Origin: Spisula solida
Lineage: Eukaryota > Mollusca > Bivalvia > Venerida > Mactridae
Length of the DNA: 64,000 nucleotides
NCBI GenBank assembly: GCA_947247005.1
Contig: OX365948.1
Span: 33,794,601-33,858,600 of the forward strand
Direction: 5' to 3'
The translations under genes and the position numbers were made by a program. The notes beneath the pieces are model-generated. The model was not told where the DNA came from. It searched no databases and worked only from the letters and a program-made list of their open reading frames with translations. Shown here piece by piece: positions 36,601 through 39,600 of the stretch. Each line of letters begins with the position of its first letter. Position 1 is the first letter of the stretch.

Positions 36601-39600
36601 TATATTGGCTGCTGTAGTGTATGTAACTGACAAAATTGTTGACAAACAGCATAAAACCTGAATAAACAAATCTTAAGTCGAAACCAAAGATATTAAAAAT
36701 GTGGGCATAGCCTGACAGGCTTATGCAGTCAGTCAAGCAGTAGACATATCCTCCATATGTGTTTAGCTGTCAGTTGCTTGTGAAAAATTGCGCTACGGAA
36801 ATAAGTCATCAAGCAAATGTCTTGAATTGTGATCAAACAACAGCAGTGTCATTGTCAGTAATTGAGGAATCTCCTTTTCATCCTTTTCGTCTGGAAATCT
36901 CCCTTCTGTATTTTAGTCATACCCTTGATTTATAAATTTGTTCATAGTTGTATAATTTATGTATATTGTTTTAACCATGTCTTAATCGTGATCGTACAGC
37001 ACTTTTGAACGTGTATATACATGAAAAAAGGGCTATAGTTTTATAAATAGGGTATAATAAATAAATAAAAAGAATTTAGTTGTTCGATCAACTGTCTATC
37101 CTGTAGGACTGCAAAGCTGTCAGTTGTAGAACTGGTGTTAAGATTAGTTAGGCAACAGACTACTGATTTTATGATATTTAGTAGTGCTGAAGGTTTTTGA
37201 GTTATTTCCCTTTAGTTGATCAGTGTTAGTGTAGTTTGGCAAATACTGTCATATCAGCTTTTTTAAGTTTTTTAACCTTGAAAAATACTCATTTTAGGAA
37301 GGTTTTAGGTTACTTTATAGGAAAATCCTTACTTGAGGGGTTCTATTTGACCCCTGTAATGACCCTTTGAGCCATTTGATCTTTGAATTATATATATTTT
37401 TGCTATAAAAGGGTAAAATCCAGTACAAAATGATCAACATTACCCTTGAGAATCAGATCCTAGTGAAACCTATGCTTACTCCATATTTCAGTGTTTGATA
37501 AAAACATGGGGATTAGAATTCATGGTCGAATATAACCATGAATTACCCATTTGATAGTAATAATTTAGCAATATATCATGTTTTTTTATCTACATTGTGT
37601 TTTCAGTAGCGGGGTATTTGCGAGTGCTGATGCTGCGTACGTTTTGGCATATTCAGTAATCATGTTAACTACAGATTTACACAGTAGTCAGGTATATGAT
37701 ATGTTGGTTTTAGCTTTTCTCTGTGATTCTGTTGTTCGTACCTATTTTTAGTTTGGAATGTTTTCTTGCAGGCTTGGTATATTTGCCAGTGCTGATACGG
37801 CGTACGTGTTGGCGTACTCCATCATTATTTTGACCACTGATTTACACAATCATCAGGTACATTTTGTTGGGGCGCATCTGCTTGACTAGAGCTATATGCT
37901 TGTTATCCTTGTAATAAAAATGGTCCTACATATTTGTAATCATACAAATTGTGTGTGTATGTGTATGTTCAATATGTATACATGCAAAGATAGTACTTTG
38001 CTCATATATGATTGGTTATTGGTAACATACTGCAAAACACACTTATAGTCATGGGCAGAAATTCTTATGAAGTAAAAAAGGGGTTTAAAGGGATTAACAG
38101 GGAAGACATTGTTAAATTTTGAGTTACCGATTTAGATTCATTACTAACAGGGTATTAATTCAAATCATTTGATCTATATCTGAATTCTATAAGCATGCAA
38201 ACTAAATAGTAAAAGCACTATTTCTGGTTTTAATAGCATGAACTTTGTTCTGGCAATATGCTTTCTTTGTTGGGGATACAATATTCACTAGTTAATTAGC
38301 ATGATTGTCAATTGGTTAAGGTATGAAATGTGAAAGTGTTATGTATTTAATGTGTTCAAACTTTCCAAATGTATTTATGGTATTCAGAAACTGTGGCTGC
38401 TGTTGATTTAAAGTGTTTAAAGCAACAAACAGAAAACGTTCTTATGACAATAAACTAAACTGAAATTGCTTCATCAATTTGTCCCAGAATGTATTCAACA
38501 TGAAACAAGTACCTGCTATGTTTGCTTCATTAGATTCATGTTTAACCTTTGTTGTAACCCTGTCAGTATGTGTTGGGTTGTTGGAAACAGAAGGGGCATT
38601 TGTCATAATACACACTATGCATTATTCTTGTATTGGCAATCTCTGTTCCTGCTTGCTTAATGGTGACCACTTGTATATGTCTTGTATACTTAGTAATAGA
38701 ATCAGTGATATGTTGAAAACTTGGCTGTAAGAATCTATACACCAAACATTTCTGTATACAGGAGCAGTAAAACCTCGCTTATGTATTGACTAACTCAAAA
38801 ATAAGACCACATCAAAATTAAACTGCAATTTTTCAACCTCATTAATAAGACCACTCCATTAAGGAGAGCAGTTTAAGGGTCCCTTGGGTGATATATTATA
38901 CCATTAAATGAGGTTTTACTGTAGTATGTTATACTATTGCTAGAGCTATGTCAGTGATAGTTTTAAGAAGAAAACATCATGTTTTCATAGTCTTTATACA
39001 CAGATTACAGCTGCAGCTTATATTATTTTTCACTTGCGCATTTACAATTTTATTTTTCATTTTATAAATTTTTATTTTCTTCTGTCATTGATTATTTCAG
39101 ATTTCTGAGTAAATATTGAGGGTTCAGTGCAAAACTATTGTAACCACATCAATTTATATAGGCATGAACAATAGTTCGGCACTGAGCCCTCGATATTCTC
39201 TCTTTGTTATCTCCCTTGTATTTAGCTAATCTGAGCACAAGATCTCACTATGACCATCATAAAGTTCAACAATTCGACTGTTAACACTCTAAATGTCACA
39301 GTTTTGACATAATCTTTAATATTATGCTACCTGGTCACAATGTATTTTTCTCTGTAAAACTTTGGCCACACATTTGGTCAAAAACTAGATCATATGGCTC
39401 AATTGAAACCTGGTTCGATGTTTATCTGTGTCCATGTTGGATACTTTGGTCACATGTATTCAACACAAGGTCACACTATAACATTTTTTTAGCTCTACTT
39501 TTGAAGAAAAAAAGTCGAGCTATTGTTGTGACGGGATCGTGTGCATCTGCGTGGGTGTATGCGTTGGCTAAATTTTATTGTCAGTCATTTTCTCAAAGAC

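Follow-up and report, generated by a model that had tools for sequence, protein, structure and literature searches.

The window, a 64,000-nucleotide stretch of Spisula solida DNA, contains the 5′ and middle part of a BIG/ARFGEF1-2 orthologue on the plus strand (16726 to 61314); the 3′ end of the gene lies beyond the window. A tblastn search with the BIG protein of Mactra antiquata (P0004) showed that its residues 1–1383 of 1783 are collinear with 16726–61314 of the plus strand. The Sec7 domain is present with its FRLPGEAQ motif, the Glu of which we take to be the catalytic residue of Sec7. The nearest solved relatives of the clam protein, its closest PDB matches, were BIG2 and BIG1, in agreement with the gene identity given in the original prediction. 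All five of the domains PF16213, PF12783, PF20252, PF01369, and PF09324 were found in each of four clam orthologues (P0001–P0004). Exon-by-exon alignment to P0004, as far as residue 1383 of 1783, points indirectly to the full BIG domain set in the window gene.

Exon junctions were assigned with a script using splice site and identity, which gave 27 junctions, with the stretch from 23.6 to 28.0 kb left out. Intron lengths were compared over 25 introns, excluding the 18–19a and 19a–20 junctions; among these 25, the acceptor at 22039 is doubtful, and a length mismatch in the script accounts for the low scores of the junctions following residues 934 and 1135. Two of the BIG introns contain tandem arrays of the same kind with a 145-bp unit (22310–23170 and 34391–34961; 5.9 and 3.9 copies, 91–92% matches), and a 138-bp array in a third intron (51220–51522) resembles them. 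A nested tandem array of about 1.4 kb with periods of 42, 83, 125, 208, and 374 lies upstream of the gene (8461–9870), and minisatellites were found at 56432–56694 (54-bp unit, 99% matches) and 63805–64000 (28-bp unit, 92% matches).

Exon 18 (36149–36319, plus strand) encodes the part of the Sec7 domain with the catalytic FRLPGEAQ motif and ends at the donor CAA/GTAAGT. Exon 20 (40553–40721, plus strand) follows the acceptor TTTGCAG/ATT and encodes the remaining Sec7 domain. Between them, on the same strand, are exon 19a (37607–37691), an 80-nt intron (37692–37771), and exon 19b (37772–37856). The original prediction was that 19a and 19b form a mutually exclusive pair, and the junctions at 36319, 37607, 37691, 37772, 37856, and 40553 were all found where it had placed them. 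Each exon is 85 nt long, with AG immediately upstream and GT immediately downstream; the two have the same phase and are 80 nt apart, so that the physical pair was confirmed. Counting AA, the last two bases of exon 18 (36319), each exon encodes 29 residues. The two exons are identical at 62 of 85 nt, and the differences fall at codon positions 1, 2, and 3 in numbers of 5, 3, and 15; a recount agreed with the predicted 8 residue differences and 10 further silent codons. The Tyr-Ser and Asp linked to brefeldin are retained in both, also as predicted. At the start of exon 20 (40553–40576), clam BIG has two extra residues past the exon 19/20 junction, reading QIKDKNKMT where human BIG1/2 read QVKNKMT; longer forms also occur at this place in Mercenaria, Mya, Dreissena, and Mactra, as well as in several gastropods.

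Reciprocal tblastn searches of the 64-kb window with the two exon products as protein queries recovered each exon with the other at E values of about 1e-11. There was no third copy of exon 19 in the window, the next match having an E value of 0.44 or worse, and exon 19 was the sole BIG exon matched twice by P0004. The pair therefore has the features of tandem-duplicated exons: the two are adjacent, homologous, in one orientation, and of the same length and phase, with splice sites on both. As far as sequence can indicate it, their description as mutually exclusive-type exons of the BIG Sec7 catalytic domain was largely upheld.

The Nei-Gojobori method gave a dN of 0.16 and a dS of approximately 1.8 between 19a and 19b; the ratio of approximately 0.09 is rough, because dS is near saturation and only 19 sites are available. 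When 23 substitutions were placed randomly on either exon, an outcome with no stop and 8 or fewer residue changes was obtained in 0.039% and 0.058% of 100,000 runs. With dN far below dS, both copies are under protein-level constraint, and both types were seen in other clams (see below); the claim that both exons are maintained as protein thus held. An assembly artefact, in which two alleles or a misjoin were placed in tandem, is extremely improbable. No point supporting it was found. The two copies differ at 23 of 85 nt with silent sites near saturation, far beyond what alleles show, 19b-type proteins occur in three other genera, and a 401-base segment containing the pair had a single 100% match in the 932-Mb, 36-contig assembly, which is the window's own assembly and not an independent one.

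The reading frame was examined for each combination of exons. Joining exon 18 to 19a and 20, or to 19b and 20, gave open frames. Joining exon 18 directly to exon 20 led to a stop 7 residues past exon 18, and inclusion of both 19a and 19b led to a stop 7 residues into 19b. These results bear out the earlier argument that, because 85 is not a multiple of 3, joint inclusion and joint skipping both reach premature stops. Because these combinations break the frame, a full-length protein needs mutual exclusion whatever the splicing mechanism, and the frame logic predicts inclusion of one and only one of the two exons.

Splice sites were scored with a position matrix made from the other sites of the gene (26 donors and 26 acceptors). 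The scores were 8.7 for the donor and 6.6 for the acceptor of 19a, and 5.5 for the donor and 9.9 for the acceptor of 19b, all inside the range of the gene. The better donor on 19a and the better acceptor on 19b would fit splice-site competition. The intron between the two exons is the shortest measured in the gene, 80 nt vs. 260–7098 nt for the 25 other BIG introns, and no yUnAy branch-point motif was found in it. Its shortness may also hinder joining of 19a to 19b; by itself, an 80-nt length is not proof that an intron cannot be spliced. For RNA pairing of the inter-exon intron with the two flanking introns, 49 of 60 and 31 of 60 shuffled sequences were at or below the observed energy, and for pairing of the upstream with the downstream intron 15 of 60 were. 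Docking-selector RNA pairing of the Dscam type thus found no support as the choice mechanism, there being no signal above shuffles in this single sequence. The candidate mechanisms are splice-site competition combined with frame-based removal, steric hindrance by the short intron, and trans-acting factors.

Proteins containing either exon type were sought in a database of 5.8 billion proteins. Among the best 120 of 1531 matches to the 19b region, those at the top were Mercenaria mercenaria isoform X3, Mya arenaria isoform X4, and Dreissena polymorpha isoform X3, followed by Mactra antiquata. The Mercenaria, Mya, and Dreissena isoforms are 19b-type, starting with K[LN] and ending with [LK]HS[HY]Q. 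Mactra BIG is 19a-type and was the first match of the 19a query (best 120 of 444 matches). Annotated clam proteins of both types thus lend further support to the predicted pair. Identity to the window outside the pair, measured over HSPs, was 93.3% for Mactra, 92.0% for Mercenaria, 88.7% for Dreissena, and 88.4% for Mya, and was 81.4% for Sinanodonta and 80.5% for Pinctada. By these values the window's clam probably belongs to Imparidentia, with Mactra as its nearest relative among the six.

Only one exon type is seen in any of these four clam proteins. This would be expected if each lineage used a single type, mactrids the 19a form and Mercenaria, Mya, and Dreissena the 19b form, and if the second copy in the window were silent or dying. 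The database holds one representative per 90% identity cluster, which hides sibling isoforms, and the annotated proteins in it are gene models. The isoform numbers of the three 19b proteins, X3 or X4, imply that further isoforms, of unseen exon type, are annotated. In the window, moreover, both copies are open and have usable splice sites, and their dN is far below dS. We consider use of one type per lineage improbable. The 19b region of the Mercenaria isoform (P0001) reads TTDKH, and 163 of the 164 listed proteins have Leu in place of that Lys; this may reflect relaxed constraint on 19b in Mercenaria or an annotation issue.

In a tree built from 29 columns and 19 sequences, the four 19b forms grouped together with 91.4 SH-aLRT and 91 UFBoot support; most other nodes were weak. 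Pinctada and Sinanodonta, which are bivalves outside Imparidentia, and the other lophotrochozoans compared have Met at the site discussed below and no Lys at residue 1. Exon 19a is ancestral-like and 19b derived. Because the 19b carriers represent both orders, the 19b type is at least as old as the split between Venerida and Myida. Among 117 short protein fragments none was 19b-type; the best match was 75% identical along all 52 residues.

To identify the residues that differ stably, two 19a and four 19b sequences were compared. The stable changes from 19a to 19b were Asn to Lys at residue 1, Ser to Leu or Asn at residue 2, Val to Ile at residue 18, Met to Ile at residue 20, and Ser to His or Tyr at residue 28. 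Ile at residue 18 is also common in single-exon relatives. At residue 4, every one of the four 19b forms has Ile, as does one of the two 19a forms. Of the six sequences, only the window's 19b has Thr at residue 10 and Asn at residue 27. From an alignment to ARNO PDB chains we take residue 20 to be ARNO M194 and residue 27 to be ARNO N201. The original prediction had proposed a reciprocal swap at these two positions. One half of it stood: Met194 is replaced by Ile in 4 of 4 19b forms. The other half did not, since Asn201 occurs in 1 of 4, the window only, and was rejected as a conserved 19b feature because it is missing from the other three 19b-type proteins. The steadier second change is Ser to His or Tyr at position 202. 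The window's 19b has HNHQ at this place, similar to HNHN of cytohesin-3; HNHN is also found at the GBF1-like locus of the same clam.

The groove methionine is widely kept. Of 162 BIG-type proteins in which the motif could be read (164 were fetched), 153 have Met at the ARNO-194 site. The remaining 9, which have Ile or Leu, belong to three clams, three nematodes, two spider mites, and a crab. The site was readable in 116 of the 117 short fragments, 111 of which have Met and 5 Leu. IQSEC1, a brefeldin-insensitive, Arf6-preferring ArfGEF, has Leu at this site in its PDB chains.

Other Sec7 loci of the genome were compared at the same site. A protein search in which only the best candidates were scored found the BIG locus once in the 932-Mb genome; three of its eight matches lay at that locus and five weaker ones elsewhere. 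The C15 match behind locus L009 was at chance level, with an E value of 7.7. By sequence, L004, L006, L007, and L008 look like cytohesin, IQSEC, GBF1, and FBXO8. Met was read by eye at the ARNO-194 position in the matching exons of L004 (...FAIIMLNTSLHN) and L006 (...FAIIMLNTDLHN), and also in L007 (...YAIIMLNVDQHNHN) and L008 (...YSLIMLSVDL), both of which are weak matches with E values of about 0.01–0.02; L008 was aligned by eye. The IQSEC-like Sec7 exon of L006 (1501–1659) differs in its Met from the Leu of the IQSEC1 chains. With the BIG exons as query, no second exon copy was found within approximately 1.5 kb on either side at L004, L006, or L007; L008 and L009 gave no match to that query.

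What is published on the groove methionine, in the available part of the GBF1 study (PMC3776844), deals with the binding of brefeldin and resistance to it. M832 of GBF1 is located in the brefeldin site, and the corresponding Met makes van der Waals contacts in crystal structures of Arno and Gea1; the M832L change gave cells protection and restored secretion in the presence of brefeldin, reducing its action without abolishing it, because the shape of the cis-Golgi stayed partly sensitive (PMC3776844). Leu at the GBF1 832 site is also stated there for MDCK cells (PMC3776844). M832L resembles 19b in placing an aliphatic residue at the same groove methionine; it differs in being a point mutation from selected cell lines rather than a product of splicing, in being Leu rather than Ile, and in affecting another ArfGEF (PMC3776844). 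In the available part of PMC2823772, neither Met194 nor Asn201 is named under those spellings in connection with contacts. The original suggestion that the two isoforms differ in ARF choice or activity is accordingly retained in a broader form, with ARF choice as merely one option. Sensitivity to brefeldin A would probably be lower for 19b. We give at best an even chance to this functional part, in which 19b lowers brefeldin binding and may alter how long the Sec7-Arf-GDP intermediate lasts. In nature, 19b is not expected to owe its existence to brefeldin; the exchange step itself is the more likely target. A changed hold on Arf-GDP in 19b would alter exchange kinetics or Arf preference.

The two isoforms could instead both be made and be nearly equal biochemically, with the duplication serving expression control only, either by tissue-specific splicing or by frame-breaking isoforms that cut BIG dosage through decay. 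In keeping with such a role, a number of the 8 differences are conservative, the Tyr-Ser and Asp are unchanged, and the combinations with both exons or neither bear premature stops. Ile or Leu is moreover the sole form seen at the Met site in the three nematodes, two spider mites, and crab, and Leu is present in 5 of the 116 readable fragments; the Met-to-Ile change may therefore be functionally mild. Against near-equality, Met to Ile and Ser202 to His or Tyr are present in 4 of 4 19b forms and Thr10 and Asn27 are not, a pattern that suggests selection. We regard near-equal isoforms as possible and on the unlikely side.

The reading that we favor, and consider likely, is that tandem exon duplication in clam BIG gave two spliced versions of the Sec7 groove, of which 19a is ancestral and 19b altered. 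A tandem duplication in BIG of clams (Imparidentia) would have produced two versions of a 29-residue segment of the Arf-binding groove. Splicing would connect exon 18 with 19a or with 19b, and the chosen exon with exon 20, and transcripts with both or neither, being out of frame because each exon has 85 nt, would be destroyed or useless. Exon 19a would keep the ancestral groove; in 19b the groove Met would have become Ile and Ser202 His or Tyr. The anatomy of the pair, the constraint on it, the frame logic, and the keeping of the 19a and 19b types in annotated proteins of clams are observations; regulated production of both isoforms within one animal is something we infer from sequence. We propose more tentatively, as something short of an even prospect, that Imparidentia toggle the BIG groove by splicing and so obtain two trans-Golgi ArfGEFs differing in Arf-GDP dwell time, Arf preference, and response to brefeldin.

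Tandem-duplicated mutually exclusive exons are of a known kind. According to the available part of PMC7434440, exons 6a and 6e of coq-2 in helminths, annelids, and molluscs are likewise a homologous pair that remodels an enzyme core, one of them being lineage-restricted with fixed diagnostic residues, and the coq-2 and mrp-1 exons are, like the BIG pair, of exactly equal length. The coq-2 enzyme is a different one, and RNA-seq and mutants provided the proof there, whereas the BIG pair is known from sequence (PMC7434440). OGDH exons 4a and 4b are a mutually exclusive pair with a short, size-restricted intron, of 118–131 nt in birds and mammals; in the part of that paper available, distant branch points were shown and the property affected is Ca2+ sensitivity, not G-protein exchange, whereas BIG has an 80-nt intron without a yUnAy motif (PMC7969005). 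Duplicated exons Ab and 3 of U2AF1 are also used mutually exclusively, in this case in a vertebrate splicing factor gene whose mechanism was studied by experiment; the routes to exclusion named in the available text are steric interference, RNA structure, decay, and trans-acting factors (PMC5224494). The main text of two papers on tandem exons contains no mention of ARFGEF or Sec7. No description of mutually exclusive exons in BIG or any Sec7 domain was found in the literature covered, which lay largely outside subscription journals, and within that scope the original statement that none is known for BIG proteins held. Within the same scope the BIG/Sec7 case is new; the occurrence of both 19a and 19b types among annotated proteins of other clams is a further new finding.

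If this is true, the splicing swap would be a direct natural experiment on groove residues in a Golgi exchange factor that is essential. It has long been studied which of these residues determine selectivity for Arf and sensitivity to brefeldin, and 19a and 19b would offer a small, clean test: two matched Sec7 domains 8 residues apart, with Met194 to Ile and Ser202 to His or Tyr among the conserved differences. A core trafficking gene would then join the mutually exclusive exons of molluscs such as those of coq-2.
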